Assembly (NCBI GenBank): GCA_026393675.1
Contig: JAPKZQ010000043.1
Coordinates: 1-64,000, forward strand
Length of the DNA: 64,000 nt
Origin: Acidobacteriota bacterium
Lineage (GTDB): Bacteria; Acidobacteriota; Vicinamibacteria; Vicinamibacterales; JAKQTR01
Reading direction: 5' to 3'
Shown: positions 12,383 through 51,567 of the stretch, in pieces
Numbering within the stretch: the first letter of the stretch is position 1
Layout of the letters: each line of letters opens with the position of its first letter
Translations under genes and position numbers: made by a program
The notes under the pieces: generated by a model
Told to the model about the DNA's origin: nothing
What the model saw: the letters and a program-made list of their open reading frames with translations, nothing else
Databases searched by the model: none

Positions 12383-13759
12383 ATGAAATCACGCATTCTC
12401 GTCATCGATGACGAAGCGGCCATCCGCGATTCGCTGCGGATGATCCTCGAGTACGAAGGCTATGAGTTCGTGGGTGCCGCGACCGGCGAGGAAGGCATCG
12501 GCGTGGTCGAACGAGAGGCCGTCGACCTGGTCTTCCTCGACATCAAAATGCCTGGTATGGACGGGCTGGAAGTGCTTGGGCGCCTGAAGAAGGTGGCCGA
12601 ATCGCTGCCTGTCGTGATGATCTCGGGCCATGCCACGGTGGCTACGGCGGTCGAGGCCACTAAGCTGGGCGCCTTCGACTTTATCGAGAAGCCGCTGACC
12701 ACCGAGCGCGTGCTGCTGACGATCAGGAACGCCTTGGGGTTCACGCGGCTTCGCGACGAGAACCGATCGCTGCAGCGCGTGATTGAAGTCCGCACGGAGA
12801 TGGTCGGGGCGAGCCCCATCCTGAACCAGGTACTGGAGTCGGTGCGCCGGGCGGCGCCAACCACAGCGACCGTGCTCATCCGGGGCGAGAGCGGTGCGGG
12901 CAAGGAGCTCGTGGCCCGCATGATTCACAGGAGCAGCCTGCGCAGCCGCGAGCGCTTCATCCAGGTGAACTGTGCCGCCATTCCGGACGACCTGATCGAA
13001 TCCGAATTGTTTGGACACGAGAAAGGGTCGTTTACCGGCGCGACCGAGAAGCAGATCGGCAAGTTCGAGCAGGCCGACCGGGGAACGATCTTCCTCGACG
13101 AAGTGGGCGACATGAGCCTGAAGACGCAGGCCAAGGTGCTGCGCGTGCTGCAGGAAGGCGAGGTCGAACGGCTGGGATCGTCGCGCACCATGAAGGTGGA
13201 CGTGCGGGTGATCGCCGCCACGAACAAGGACCTCGAGCAGGAGATCGAGAAAGGGACCTTCCGCGAGGACCTGTTCTTCCGGCTGAGCGTCATTCCCATC
13301 ACCGTGCCGCCGCTGCGTGAGCGGGGCGACGACATCGCGCTTCTGGTCAAACACTTCGCCGACGTGTTCACGAAAGAGAACAACTTCCGGCCGAAACGAT
13401 TTTCGCCGGACGCGATGGCGATGCTGCAGCACTACCGGTGGAAGGGCAATGTCAGGGAGCTGAAGAACACGATCGAGCGCGTCTTGATCATGACGCCTGG
13501 AGATGTGATCGGGGAGGACGACCTGCCGGAGACCGTCCGATCCGCGCCGCGGCAGGCGCCGCAGGAAGGCGGGCAGGAACGCGCAGGCACACTTCGCGAA
13601 TTCAAGGAGTCAGCCGAGCGGGCCTTTCTCCTGGAGAAGCTCCGGGAGAACAACTGGAACATCTCCCGGACCGCCGAAGTCATCGGCACACCAAGAAGTA
13701 ACCTATACAAGAAGCTGGAGCTGTACAATATCAAGCAGGAGCTCGACTCCGGAGTTTAA
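12383..13759 (+). CDS. NtrC-family sigma-54-dependent response regulator (NtrX-like)
   Basis: A 458-residue regulator with a receiver domain (phospho-acceptor Asp53 in FLDIKMPG), an AAA+ domain with Walker A GESGAGKE near 169 and a GSFTGA loop near 215 (a conservative form of GAFTGA), and a C-terminal Fis-like helix-turn-helix (ISRTAEVIGTPRSNLYKKL). The NRSLQRVIE linker and the ending YNIKQE resemble NtrX-type regulators. It starts 7 bases after ligA and has no adjacent kinase, so its partner is elsewhere. Its TAA is followed at once by hairpin element A, upstream of the RNase P RNA gene. Confidence 0.94.
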   Translation: MKSRILVIDDEAAIRDSLRMILEYEGYEFVGAATGEEGIGVVEREAVDLVFLDIKMPGMDGLEVLGRLKKVAESLPVVMISGHATVATAVEATKLGAFDFIEKPLTTERVLLTIRNALGFTRLRDENRSLQRVIEVRTEMVGASPILNQVLESVRRAAPTTATVLIRGESGAGKELVARMIHRSSLRSRERFIQVNCAAIPDDLIESELFGHEKGSFTGATEKQIGKFEQADRGTIFLDEVGDMSLKTQAKVLRVLQEGEVERLGSSRTMKVDVRVIAATNKDLEQEIEKGTFREDLFFRLSVIPITVPPLRERGDDIALLVKHFADVFTKENNFRPKRFSPDAMAMLQHYRWKGNVRELKNTIERVLIMTPGDVIGEDDLPETVRSAPRQAPQEGGQERAGTLREFKESAERAFLLEKLRENNWNISRTAEVIGTPRSNLYKKLELYNIKQELDSGV

Positions 13760-13761
13760 CT

Positions 13762-13830
13762 GGAGACGGTTACATCACCTGCGTAACGCGGTCTGATCTC
13801 GCCGCAAGAACGGGTGATGAAATCGGTTGT
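13762..13830 (+). repeat. Covarying hairpin element, copy A
   Basis: The first of three related 65-70 base elements. The outer stem pairs CATCACC (13773-13779) with GGTGATG (13813-13819) and continues outward with CGGTT against AATCG, broken by one A-A mismatch. Inside lies a conserved asymmetric loop, TGCGTA on the left and AGAACG on the right, and then a short GCGG/CCGC hairpin. It begins 2 bases after the stop of the NtrC-type regulator and ends about 8 bases before the RNase P RNA. It could terminate or separate the two transcripts, but the conserved internal loop argues for more than a terminator. Confidence 0.75.
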
Positions 13831-13837
13831 AGATTCC

Positions 13838-14338
13838 GCCGCAGTCAGCCAGACGACCGCTGTTTCCGGAGTGCTTGCGGCACGGGCGCCGTCGGCATTA
13901 CCGGGAAGGGAGGAAAGTCCGAACTCCGCAGGGCAGTGCGCCGGGTAACGCCCGGTCAGGGTGACCTGAAGGAAAGTGGCACAGAAAATATACCGCCCGA
14001 CTTCGCGCTCGGCGCTTCGTCGGGCAGGCCCGCAAGGCTTGCCCGCCGTAGCTCGCCGGCAGCCGCAAGACTCCGGCAAGCGGAGGAGGGTAAGGGTGAA
14101 AAGGTGCGGTAAGAGCGCACCGCGCCCGCGGCAACGTGGGTGGCAGGCAAAACCCCGCACGGAGCAAGACCAAATAGGGAGGCGCATCAGGGTGGCCCGC
14201 CCGATGCCTCCGGGTCGGTTGCTGGACCCCGTCAGCGATGGCGGGGCTAGAGGAATGGTCGTCACCCCGAGCGAGCGCGGGCCGTAAGGCTCGCGCGAGT
14301 CGAGGGGAACAGAATTCGGCTTACGGCTCGACTGCGGC
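13838..14338 (+). ncRNA. rnpB: RNase P RNA (bacterial type A)
   Basis: The catalytic RNA that cuts tRNA 5' leaders. Helix P1 is formed by GCCGCAGTC (13838-13846) and GACTGCGGC (14330-14338). The universally conserved core is readable: GAGGAAAGTCCGAACTCC near 13910, the CGGGTAACGCCCGG hairpin, GAAGGAAAGTGGCACAGAAA, GGTAAGGGTGAAAAGGTG near 14090, GTAAGAGCGCACCGC, and the 3' block AGAATTCGGCTTAC. At about 500 nt it is long for the family (roughly 350-420), mainly because the P12 arm (about 13995-14085) is enlarged. No bacterial type B features are seen. Hairpin elements A and B flank it closely on either side. Confidence 0.95.
13994..14087 (+). repeat. Enlarged P12 arm of rnpB containing nested hairpins
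   Basis: Between the conserved ACCGC and the GGGTAAGGGTGAAA block, where P12 normally holds a few tens of bases, there are about 95. Several nested inverted repeats are visible. CCCGAC pairs with GTCGGG around a 17-base loop. CGGGCAGGCC pairs with GGCTTGCCCG around CGCAA. GCCGG pairs with CCGGC. The composition (GCCCGCCGTAGCTCGCCGG) resembles dispersed GC-rich repeats of large acidobacterial genomes. Insertion of such a repeat into a tolerant arm is my inference. Confidence 0.55.
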
Positions 14339-14350
14339 ACTTACCGGGGA

Positions 14351-14411
14351 CGATTTCAAGACCTGCGTACGGCGGCCTGTTCTGAGGTCGCCAGAACGGG
14401 TCTTGAAATCG
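14351..14411 (+). repeat. Covarying hairpin element, copy B
   Basis: The second copy, with the strongest stem. GATTTCAAGACC (14352-14363) pairs perfectly with GGTCTTGAAATC (14399-14410), plus a further C-G pair outside. The loop strands TGCGTA and AGAACG match copies A and C, and the inner hairpin is GGCGGCCT/AGGTCGCC. It lies 12 bases after the RNase P RNA and 33 bases before the epimerase start, so it could be part of the leader of that gene. Confidence 0.78.
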
Positions 14412-14421
14412 GTTCCTTTCA

Positions 14422-14436
14422 CCTCATGAAGTGAGG
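14422..14436 (+). promoter_or_regulatory. Small hairpin that could cover the epimerase ribosome-binding site
   Basis: CCTCA (14422-14426) can pair with TGAGG (14432-14436) across a five-base loop. The right arm contains the GAGG of the likely ribosome-binding site for the ATG at 14444. A five-pair stem is weak and may be chance. It is noted because hairpin copy B lies just upstream. Confidence 0.3.
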
Positions 14437-14443
14437 GATCTGG

Positions 14444-15391
14444 ATGGCGGCATACTTGGTGACGGGAGGCGCGGGGTTCATCGGATCGCACATGGTCGAG
14501 GAATTGGTGCGCCGCGGCGAGCGCGTCCGCGTGGTCGACAGTCTCGTGACCGGCAAGCGACGTAATCTCGCCGCGGTCGAGTCGTCCATTGAGTTTATCC
14601 AGGGAGATCTTGCCGATGCGGCCGTCGCGCGGCAGGCCGTGGCGGGCATGGACTATGTCCTGCACCAGGCCGCGATTCCGTCGGTGCCGCGATCGGTCGC
14701 CGACCCAGTGACGTCGCACCGATCGATCGTCGAGGCCACGCTCAACATCCTGGTCGCCGCGCGTGATGCCGGCGTCAAGCGGGTCATCTACGCCGGGTCG
14801 TCGTCTGTATACGGGAACCAGCCCACACTGCCAAAGCACGAAGGCATGGTGTCGAAGCCGCTCTCGCCGTACGCGTTGCAGAAGATGGTCGGCGAGCAGT
14901 ACGGGCAGATCTTCACGACGCTGTACGGACTGGAAACCGTGTCGACGCGGTATTTCAACGTCTTCGGGCCGAGACAGGATCCCTCCTCGCCGTATTCGGG
15001 CGTCATCTCCGTCTTTGCCCGCGCCGTCGTGTCGGGTCGGCCGCCAACCATCCATGGAGATGGCGAACAGACCCGGGACTTCACCTTCGTGGCGAATGTT
15101 GTCGATGGCGTCCTCAAGGCATGCCATGCCCAGGGGGCAGCCGGCCAGGTCTTTAACGTCGCGACGGGCGGCCGCATTTCGCTGAACCAGTTGTTTGACG
15201 TTGTGCAGAAGCTGGCGGGAAGTCACATGACGCCGGTCTACGGTCCCGAACGGGTCGGCGACGTCAAACACTCGCAAGCCGACATCTCGCGCGCACGAGC
15301 CGTCCTGCACTACGAACCGATCGTCAGTCTCGAAGAGGGATTAGCGCAGACGATCGCCTGGTTCAAGACTGATCCCGAGGCCCTTAATTAG
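14444..15391 (+). CDS. NAD-dependent sugar-nucleotide epimerase/dehydratase (GalE/WbpP-like)
   Basis: A 315-residue extended short-chain dehydrogenase. The N-terminal NAD motif is TGGAGFIGSH. The catalytic Tyr-Lys pair is in SPYALQKMVGE near residues 144-148, with the partner Ser in AGSSSVYGN near 123. The C-terminal half has RYFNVFGPRQDPSSPY and RDFTFVANVV, typical of UDP-glucose and UDP-N-acetylglucosamine 4-epimerases and of WbpP-like proteins. It should supply an activated sugar for cell-surface polysaccharide. It stands alone, flanked by hairpin elements B and C. The exact substrate cannot be fixed from the sequence. Confidence 0.9.
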   Translation: MAAYLVTGGAGFIGSHMVEELVRRGERVRVVDSLVTGKRRNLAAVESSIEFIQGDLADAAVARQAVAGMDYVLHQAAIPSVPRSVADPVTSHRSIVEATLNILVAARDAGVKRVIYAGSSSVYGNQPTLPKHEGMVSKPLSPYALQKMVGEQYGQIFTTLYGLETVSTRYFNVFGPRQDPSSPYSGVISVFARAVVSGRPPTIHGDGEQTRDFTFVANVVDGVLKACHAQGAAGQVFNVATGGRISLNQLFDVVQKLAGSHMTPVYGPERVGDVKHSQADISRARAVLHYEPIVSLEEGLAQTIAWFKTDPEALN

Positions 15392-15394
15392 AGA

Positions 15395-15453
15395 CGGCTT
15401 CATAACCTGCGTACGGCGGCCCGATTTCGCCGCGAGAACGGGTTATGACGCCG
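15395..15453 (+). repeat. Covarying hairpin element, copy C
   Basis: The third copy begins 4 bases after the epimerase stop. CATAACC (15401-15407) pairs with GGTTATG (15441-15447), and beyond one mismatch CGGC (15395-15398) pairs with GCCG (15450-15453). The loop strands TGCGTA and AGAACG are kept, and the inner hairpin is CGGCG/CGCCG. Bases that differ from copies A and B in the stem are matched by changes on the other arm. Confidence 0.77.
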
Positions 15454-15484
15454 GTTCAAATCTCTCCCATATTTCCTGTGGTCA

Positions 15485-15532
15485 ACCGCCGGCGCCGCCA
15501 TACCGCCTACGAACAGCCCCCACTGAGCGGGC
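15485..15532. repeat. GC-rich direct repeat, copy 1
   Basis: About 48 bases starting ACCGCCGGCGCCGCCA and ending at the 3' end of the minus-strand secreted-protein gene. A second copy at 16917-16962 lies just upstream of the start of the same gene. The two agree at roughly 37 of 44 aligned positions, with small gaps in the right part. They bracket exactly one gene. Confidence 0.6.
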
Positions 15533-15540
15533 TATTTCTT
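15515..15540 (+). terminator. Possible intrinsic terminator after the epimerase gene
   Basis: AGCCC (15515-15519) and GGGCT (15529-15533) form a five-pair stem with a nine-base loop, followed by ATTTCTT. It overlaps the stop codon of the converging secreted-protein gene. The stem is short and the T run is imperfect, so the call is tentative. Confidence 0.35.
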
Positions 15541-16887
15541 GAGGAGGACGTATCCCTGCGGCGGCGGATCCAGAGTCGAGTTCCAGAGGAGTCCCGACGA
15601 GGGGTGGTAATAGAGCGGATGACTCCCTCCGGGGATTGAGTTGAGCGGGACATCGATCCGTTCTCCCGTCGGCGTGCGATACGGTTCGTAGCCCATGATG
15701 GACTCTTGGCGTTTCGCCGAGAGTTCGGCATCGACATTGTTCTTATATGCCGAGCTGCCCATGATCGTCGAGGAGTCGTAAGGATTGTTTCGGGGCAGAA
15801 TGCGTCCGGTGATAAGTTCGCTGGCCCGAAGAATCTTGAGATTCTCCTGGACGATTGCCGTCGCCGCAGCCTGACTTTCCCACCGGTCGGGCCGGGCGCT
15901 ACGGGTCGCTGTGGCGATGAACCAGCCATAAAGGCCAGTGACATGGCGTCCGTTCATGACCATCCCGGTCAGGACTCCGTGAACGCGGGAGCCGGCCGCG
16001 TCGACAAGCGTTGCCTCGAACTCCTCGGCCCGGGCTTTCCAGATTCTTCCCAACGCATCCTTGAAATCCGGAGCGTCGACGAAGGCCAGGCGGTTGTAGG
16101 TCTTGGCGACGCTCCAGCAGGGTTGCTGGCCGGGAGAACACGGTTTGGTGGCGGCCTCGAAGAGGCGGGGGACCGTCATGGGAGAAGGATCTCCGCCGAA
16201 ATCGGCATACGCCGACATCACCCCCGCGTCTCCGGTCGCATTCACGAAACTGACGGAGTTCGACGATTCCTCCAGGATCCGCCATCCCTTTGGGGCCATC
16301 GTCTCGAAATAGGTCCCGCTCAGCTTGACCAGGGCGACCCCCGGGACGCGCCGATAGCTTCCGGCAATCTCGCGCAGTCCATTTTGTTTTGCGGCAAACT
16401 CCGCCGCCGGGGCCCAGATGACCGTCAGGACATAATCAGGGGCCTGGGCGACCGCGGTCGCCAACCCGGAAATCGGCGTTCCGGAAACCACGCCCGACAC
16501 TCGGGCGGTCGCCCCGAGGCGGTCGGACAAGAGATCCGCGAATTCGATTCTTGCCGCGCTGGTCGGAGATGCCTTCAGAACCGTGAGATAGCTTGTTAGA
16601 AATGCCTGGAGGGTGAAACCCGGCTTTGGTTTGACCGGGTAGATCAGGACGCCTTCCCTGGCTTGGTCGTCCTTGAGAACGGCGATGACCCCCGTCGTAT
16701 AGCGGAGCCGCCATCCCGCGGGCCGTTTCAGACTGAAACCGACGACATCATCCGTGAATGCGGTTAAGGCCGGAATTGGGGGGCTTTCATGCTTGCCGCG
16801 CTCGATCGACCGTAATACGGGACTGAACAAGATCCCCAAGGCCAGGCAAACGCCGGTCCACAAGACAGTTCGACGAGCGAAGCGCAT
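15532..16887 (-). CDS. Predicted exported or membrane-anchored protein, unknown function
   Basis: A 451-residue protein with a positively charged N-terminus and one hydrophobic helix (about residues 7-24), consistent with a signal peptide or anchor. The next part (about 45-185) reads like a beta-rich PsbP/DcrB-like lipoprotein fold (DDVVGFSLKRPAGWRLRY is its opening). A similar module may follow at about 195-330 (YFETMAPKGWRILEE). The C-terminus is Pro/Ser/Tyr-rich and ends in a short repetitive stretch (YYHPSSGLLW, PPPQGYVLLKK). The start ATG at 16887 is the first before the signal-like helix. It is alone on the minus strand and bracketed by two similar GC-rich repeats, so it may be a separately acquired unit. 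I do not recognise a specific function. Confidence 0.75.
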   Translation of the reverse strand: MRFARRTVLWTGVCLALGILFSPVLRSIERGKHESPPIPALTAFTDDVVGFSLKRPAGWRLRYTTGVIAVLKDDQAREGVLIYPVKPKPGFTLQAFLTSYLTVLKASPTSAARIEFADLLSDRLGATARVSGVVSGTPISGLATAVAQAPDYVLTVIWAPAAEFAAKQNGLREIAGSYRRVPGVALVKLSGTYFETMAPKGWRILEESSNSVSFVNATGDAGVMSAYADFGGDPSPMTVPRLFEAATKPCSPGQQPCWSVAKTYNRLAFVDAPDFKDALGRIWKARAEEFEATLVDAAGSRVHGVLTGMVMNGRHVTGLYGWFIATATRSARPDRWESQAAATAIVQENLKILRASELITGRILPRNNPYDSSTIMGSSAYKNNVDAELSAKRQESIMGYEPYRTPTGERIDVPLNSIPGGSHPLYYHPSSGLLWNSTLDPPPQGYVLLKK

Positions 16888-51424: not shown

Positions 51425-51567
51425 TGGACCGAAGTCCTTCGATTCATAAGTTCGTTGGCGAACTTATTCACTCAGGACTTCGTGCTGAGCGAGCAGTGTT
51501 CAACGGATCGCTTCGTAAGAATAGGCGACCGTCGTCGCGAGTCGAAGCACTCAGGGAGCAGGCCGGT

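Follow-up and report, generated by a model that had tools for sequence, protein, structure and literature searches.

Three hairpin-forming segments that share one plan lie around rnpB and an epimerase gene in a 64-kb stretch of acidobacterial DNA (the window, meaning the whole 64,000 nucleotides analyzed). An earlier note on this locus had taken their paired stem changes and unchanged internal loop as the signature of a selected structure, and had suggested a functional RNA or a mobile RNA-like repeat. The locus thus raises the question of whether the hairpins are working RNAs or copies of a mobile DNA. Our results indicated that they are very probably copies of a REP/MITE-like mobile DNA palindrome, non-autonomous and about 71 nt long, which would fold as a single-stranded DNA hairpin.

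Three Copies at the rnpB Locus

The three copies were found on the same plan, as described in the earlier note, and each was longer than the limits given there by a few bases (Table 1). Chance was ruled out: the core CCTGCGTA-N-AGAACGGG occurred three times in the 64-kb window against 0.00 expected from shuffles, which lacked the core, and the RNA folding z-scores of copies 1, 2, and 3 relative to shuffled sequence were -3.5, -6.5, and -4.6. The earlier note gave the arm pairs (CATCACC/GGTGATG, CAAGACC/GGTCTTG, and CATAACC/GGTTATG) and the outer extensions correctly. Between these blocks, copies 1 and 3 carried one mismatch each (A-A and T-C, respectively), and copy 1 also carried a G-T. The common plus orientation noted earlier held inside the window but not genome-wide, where both strands occur.

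Table 1. Positions in the window of the three copies, their parts, and the neighboring genes.
Feature	Position	Strand	Remark
Copy 1, palindromic element	13759..13829	+	Covariance model 86.6 bits; between sigma-54 response-regulator stop codon and rnpB
Copy 1 outer stem, 5' arm (CGGTTACATCACC)	13767..13779	+	
Copy 1 conserved core, 5' side, TGCGTA	13780..13785	+	
Copy 1 inner hairpin (GCGGT/GCCGC)	13788..13805	+	Variable
Copy 1 conserved core, 3' side, AGAACG	13807..13812	+	
Copy 1 outer stem, 3' arm (GGTGATGAAATCG)	13813..13825	+	
Copy 2	14343..14415	+	85.4 bits; upstream of epimerase gene
Copy 2, 5' arm (CGATTTCAAGACC)	14351..14363	+	
Copy 2, 3' arm (GGTCTTGAAATCG)	14399..14411	+	
Copy 3	15387..15457	+	89.8 bits
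Copy 3, 5' arm (CGGCTTCATAACC)	15395..15407	+	
Copy 3, 3' arm (GGTTATGACGCCG)	15441..15453	+	
rnpB (RNase P RNA, class A)	13841..14339	+	Rfam, 259 bits; bracketed by copies 1 and 2; neighbor, not element
Sigma-54-dependent response regulator gene	12383..13759	+	Neighbor; TAA ends at copy 1 base 1
NAD-dependent epimerase/dehydratase gene	14444..15391	+	Neighbor

Copy 1, whose first base is the last base of the response-regulator stop codon, ended 11 nt before rnpB, copy 2 started 4 nt past the end of the RNase P RNA, and copy 3 overlapped the TAG stop codon of the epimerase gene (15389-15391). No T-run or terminator-like site was found in 13700-15560 or at any of the three copies, which bore out the view that they form a structured repeat rather than a plain terminator.

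A mere 11 nt (window 13830-13840) separated copy 1 from the start of rnpB, and a search for a sigma-70-like promoter was negative; transcription of rnpB may therefore begin upstream and run through the hairpin of copy 1. Where hairpins lie beside rnpB and the genes, transcript ends may be affected incidentally.

Copy Number and Distribution

A covariance model was built from ten copies, with E-values that were rough because of a short calibration. The model found 25 confident copies of the repeat in the window's own genome (G000, 3.25 Mb), on both strands. Within the same Vicinamibacterales family, 24 copies were found in a same-genus genome (G001, 100% complete), and 2, 43, and 15 copies were found in three sister-genus genomes; all are draft assemblies with partial contigs. 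A search of this kind, which the earlier note had proposed as a check, revealed many intergenic copies in relatives. Another 55 genomes of the order gave no copies with the covariance model. In a phylum sample of 396 genomes, in a run that scored fewer candidates per genome, copies occurred in the two same-genus genomes only. When 85,000 species were scanned with a pattern, eleven matches fell in two Vicinamibacterales MAGs (Prado007 and LacPavin), and three fell outside Vicinamibacterales. Of these three, L256 and L258 had no 5' arm and were rejected as chance, and the third was a Clostridiales repeat. Strict patterns gave no match in viral contigs, where loose-pattern matches were taken as chance, and the plasmid search gave no credible match. 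As far as searched, the element is confined to one Vicinamibacterales family. For the grouping of copies by genome on a tree, the count had no usable null; mean identities within genomes were slightly above those between genomes.

Rfam returned nothing for the element at the gathering and relaxed thresholds, and in the window RNase P alone passed. Acido-1 and Acido-Lenti-1, which had been put forward as candidate models, were absent even from the relaxed list (E up to 10). No description of the element was found in the open-licence literature.

The Clostridiales repeat, a larger unit with several hairpins, was observed about 26 times in the Clostridiales Family XIII bacterium Gx481_bin34 (G423; L260, L327-L334, L337-L364). 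It holds GGGTTCAATACCTGC...GCGAACGGGTATTGAACCCG, and its core, arms, and plan are similar to those of the element; no match to it was found in 59 relatives. It is a real family of its own and is at most possibly homologous to the element, since the pattern that found it itself selects for the similarity.

Anatomy of the Element

The figures for anatomy and flanks were taken from an alignment of 110 copies. From 5' to 3', the element consists of a flank (CTGGRGAC), the outer stem of 13-15 bp, the 5' side of the core (TGCG-T-R), a length-variable inner hairpin (GCGGCC/GGCCGC), the 3' side of the core (N-AGAAC-G), and a flank (GGTTC). The apical part is about 35 nt long and has its own hairpin. 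The 5' flank consensus was T.ACTGGRGAC in G000 and G001 and AGGACC in G003, and the 3' flank was GGTTC or GCCTC. In L030, L034, and L074, a second palindrome lay within the inner hairpin, and the non-coding interior can be longer. One nested pair was found, in which one copy was inserted into another (C15:65377).

The internal loop TGCGTA/AGAACG, reported as identical in the window's three copies, was indeed so there, but across the 110 copies only TGCG and AGAAC were conserved, and the base after TGCGT varied (G in 54 versus A in 32 of 95). The proposed resemblance of GUA/GAA to a loop-E (bulged-G) module consequently failed, as the A of GTA is the minority base. With DNA energy parameters, CGT paired with ACG and TG was left as a bulge; the 6x6 internal loop (TGCGTR/NAGAAC) may thus be a TG bulge and a short helix.

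A short palindrome, TTCGCNNGCGGCTNCGGCG, recurred in L034, L074, L078, and L341, three times in the inner hairpin of the element or beside a half element. It may be a further small mobile palindrome, one with a target preference.

Covariation and the G·U versus A·C Test

The compensatory stem changes that had been noted in three copies were genuine. Double-changed cells numbered 180 against 51 +/- 8 in shuffles, and none of 500 shuffles attained the covariation score; slid controls reached at most 47. These values come from an alignment fitted to the covariance model, which leans towards covariation. At two stem positions, TA, AT, GC, and CG all occurred in quantity.

In an RNA helix maintained by selection, G·U is tolerated but A·C is not, whereas a DNA palindrome drifting after insertion should contain both equally. 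Among the non-Watson-Crick cells of the outer stem, G·U was counted 43 times and A·C 48 times (p = 0.68). In tRNA stems of the same DNA, used as a control, G·U was counted 19 times and A·C 0 times, in calls from ARAGORN, which prefers standard pairs and so tilts this control towards G-U. The G-U/A-C balance is a property of the copies as inserted and, taken alone, is compatible with an RNA intermediate in mobilization. Pairing was perfect in 22 of the 110 copies, and most had one or two unpaired positions, which fits recent copies that decay. Template switching, a replication error in which one arm is copied onto the other, is known to create compensatory changes (PMC8794818). The matched stem changes are real, yet they probably point to a hairpin-shaped mobile DNA rather than a working RNA.

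Presence, Absence, and Decay at Orthologous Sites

Four copies of the window's own genome (L029, L037, L023, and L022) were missing at the collinear sites of the same-genus genome G001, where the flanks aligned on both sides and the upstream stop codon lay at the identical place in both genomes. For copy 3 of the window, the collinear place in G001 had no element. At the rnpB locus of G001, both flanking copies were present, and copy 2 was orthologous. In contrast, the rnpB loci of the sister-genus genomes G002 and G003 had short spacers and neither copy 1 nor copy 2, suggesting most simply that these copies entered the lineage of the window's genus. Around the sites the relatives were about 80-93% identical, so the insertion boundaries are approximate. 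The collinear sites had no uniform empty-site sequence. Over the 110 copies, flank-to-flank identity was not significant, and only single suggestive cases of target duplication were seen.

Orthologous copies mostly lost pairs: before tRNA-Glu the inner stem was broken and A·C pairs were present, and by tRNA-Arg an arm was truncated. One orthologous pair (L101/L050) showed a compensated change from A-T to G-C. Structural selection in place, tested on the orthologous copies (six comparable pairs at most), was rejected because pairs were mostly lost.

Gene Context and In-Frame Copies

Gene context was assigned with a simple codon-usage gene caller, whose calls are approximate. Most copies were extragenic. 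In clean spacers with both neighbors called (79 copies), 29 copies were sense to both neighbors, 19 antisense to both, 18 convergent, and 13 divergent, indicating a weak strand bias relative to genes. A stop codon lay in exact register with the 5' end of the element in 21 copies. Among copies after a sense gene, the stop was at element base 3-5 in 11 (usually TAG) and at base 1 in 10 (usually TAA). This register may arise partly because the element itself offers a TAG.

In-frame copies were found in three genes: mfd of G003, right after the UvrB-interaction domain; an Eco57I-type restriction methylase gene of G003, whose homologues in G001 and G004 are without the segment; and a YegS-like lipid kinase gene of G001. 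The mfd insertion recalls the preference for DNA-repair genes that has been reported for REPs.

The mfd linker after the UvrB-interaction domain carried palindromic insertions in two genomes, the element in G003 (L091 290-365) and another family in G000 (L030 560-1027); in the latter gene, a remnant of the element (GACGCAGGTCCCGAGAACC) may persist. A second, unrelated palindromic repeat was observed in the window at 51432-51494 (to about 51560), reading AAGTCCTTCG...CAGGACTT, then ...GAGTCGAAGCACT. A related copy of it lay in frame in the own-genome mfd (L030 560-691), and others were seen in L303, L311, L309, and L014.

Search for a Mobilizing Enzyme

Nine Y1_Tnp genes were found in the family, in four of five genomes, and none had a confident copy of the element within the fetched flanks. 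G001, with its 24 copies, contained no Y1 gene, and the two Y1 genes of the window's own genome were flanked by palindromes other than the element. A link to a RAYT was dropped, as no Y1 gene lay near any confident copy. No parent insertion sequence was seen among the right-half matches listed in three genomes, in a partial search.

The own-genome Y1 transposase genes (L011, about 2100-2460; L012, about 1920-2060) were bordered by CCGGGCTCCAGCCCGG-type and CCGGGTCTTCAGACCCGGC-type repeats. These genes and their bordering palindromes are probably true REP/RAYT pairs.

Discussion

The element was compared with known palindromic repeats. TnpA-REP requires a REP hairpin with a bulge and a GTAG (PMC8266576), and Di Nocera et al. 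report that GTAG REPs likewise stand in register with stop codons and offer a TAG, and that intragenic copies occur in repair genes (PMC3733652). The element shares with REP/BIME sequences mobilized by TnpA-REP (E. coli; PMC8266576, PMC3733652) a short imperfect palindrome, a conserved bulge, and a high and variable copy number; like them, it is mostly extragenic, abuts and supplies TAG stop codons, and is present in repair genes. Unlike them, it is 71 nt long (REP, 20-50), has tens of copies, and carries the apical part of about 35 nt with its own hairpin. Unlike GTAG REPs, it has no unpaired GTAG or near variant at the hairpin foot and no cognate flanked Y1/RAYT gene. It resembles CGTC REPs (PMC3733652) in being without a known dedicated transposase, in its intragenic copies, and in presenting, on the complementary strand, CGTC and then TCCA at the hairpin end in most G000 copies. 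It differs from them in its 13-15 bp stem and composite apical part (CGTC REPs have an 8-9 bp stem and a 4-5 nt loop), in the many G003 copies without CGTC, and in having its tag and CCA at the same end. We filed it outside GTAG and CGTC REPs because it differs from the former in its tag and RAYT and from the latter in stem and loop sizes.

Rickettsia palindromic elements (RPEs; PMC10969869, PMC2229807) are similar in lying in frame in unrelated protein genes and in spacers and in having no known mobilizer, but they are about 150 bp against 71, the element is mostly extragenic, the host phylum is unrelated, and the likeness drawn here is one of description. With the MITEs Correia/NEMIS, ERIC, and RUP (PMC2229807), the element shares a small non-coding repeat, inverted-repeat ends, nesting, and empty sites in relatives; unlike in those MITEs, no target duplication was seen, and the arms covary between copies rather than being the fixed ends of a parent IS. 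We placed it as a new variant among bacterial mobile palindromes, working like REPs and RPEs.

Could the hairpins nevertheless act as RNA? In a structured non-coding RNA or 3'-UTR element, the plus-strand hairpin would be processed or serve as a protein-binding site, and its pairing would be maintained by selection at the RNA level. Strong covariation, the conserved asymmetric core, low RNA folding energies, and the position of several copies, which directly follow stop codons or adjoin tRNA or rnpB genes, would all fit. However, G-U showed no excess over A-C, 19 copies were antisense to both neighbors and 13 lay in divergent spacers, so that strand relative to genes is nearly mixed, copies occur in frame within genes, orthologous copies lose pairs, the repeat is restricted to one bacterial family, no Rfam gathering score was obtained, and the loop-E base is not conserved. 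We consider this explanation improbable; of the two options originally raised, the mobile repeat fits and RNA function is not supported. A transcription terminator or mRNA-stabilizing hairpin, spread by selection on gene ends, would account for the many copies right after stop codons, but the three copies have no T-run or terminator-like site, the core is conserved far beyond the needs of termination, and divergent and intragenic copies exist, which makes this reading highly improbable.

Two narrower forms of the mobile palindrome were also weighed. The element might be a REP proper, moved by a Y1 transposase (RAYT) of the host family that has since been lost or has diverged beyond PF01797. 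The stop-codon register, the intragenic copies in a repair gene, the bulged hairpin, and the lack of target duplication all match REPs, and four of the five genomes have Y1 genes; on the other side stand the absent GTAG tag, the different palindromes around the own-genome Y1 genes, the nine Y1 genes without a nearby confident element, and the 24 copies of G001 in a genome with no Y1 gene. This form is possible, somewhat short of an even chance. The other form, a classical MITE, takes the arms as terminal inverted repeats recognized as duplex by a DDE transposase, and assumes an undetected parent insertion sequence as the source of that enzyme. The arms GGTTTCATAACC, inverted at the two ends, the nested insertion, and the non-coding interior, longer in L030, L034, and L074, agree with it. 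Yet the arms match even where copies differ, and duplex recognition of each end needs no such match; moreover, there was no target duplication signal, and the right-half matches of the partial search showed no transposase flanked by a pair of half elements. We regard the MITE form as unlikely.

The mobile-palindrome reading itself builds on direct observations, namely multiple copies in variable number, presence and absence at collinear sites, nesting, in-frame copies, covariation without G-U excess, and no detected target duplication. Against it were counted the lack of an enzyme gene, of a clean target duplication, and of a uniform empty site. In the proposed mechanism, the hairpin would form in single-stranded DNA, with the 13-15 bp outer stem, the bulged core, and the variable inner hairpin. 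The core and stem of the folded single strand would be recognized by an enzyme acting in trans; by analogy with TnpA-REP, which recognizes the bulged REP hairpin, the invariant bulged core may play the role of the REP bulge. The enzyme would then insert the element, which would be tolerated mainly beside stop codons and in spacers. The arms would stay complementary either because the ability to fold is a prerequisite for moving or because one arm is rewritten from the other by template switching; once inserted, the copies would drift. A bolder version, in which the element is a new single-strand-DNA hairpin transposon with a non-Y1 enzyme, arms rewritten from each other at each move, and a core that perhaps crossed to Clostridiales, is speculative and rather doubtful. 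If every move rewrites the arms, with template switching as one possible route, compensatory changes would pile up without any RNA function.

Collectively, these results suggested that paired stem changes flanking an invariant loop, which textbooks treat as the mark of a functional RNA, here very probably come from a mobile DNA palindrome. The two origins can be separated by a simple check that combines G·U versus A·C counts with presence or absence at orthologous sites. The element is apparently a previously undescribed mobile palindrome from a little-studied phylum.
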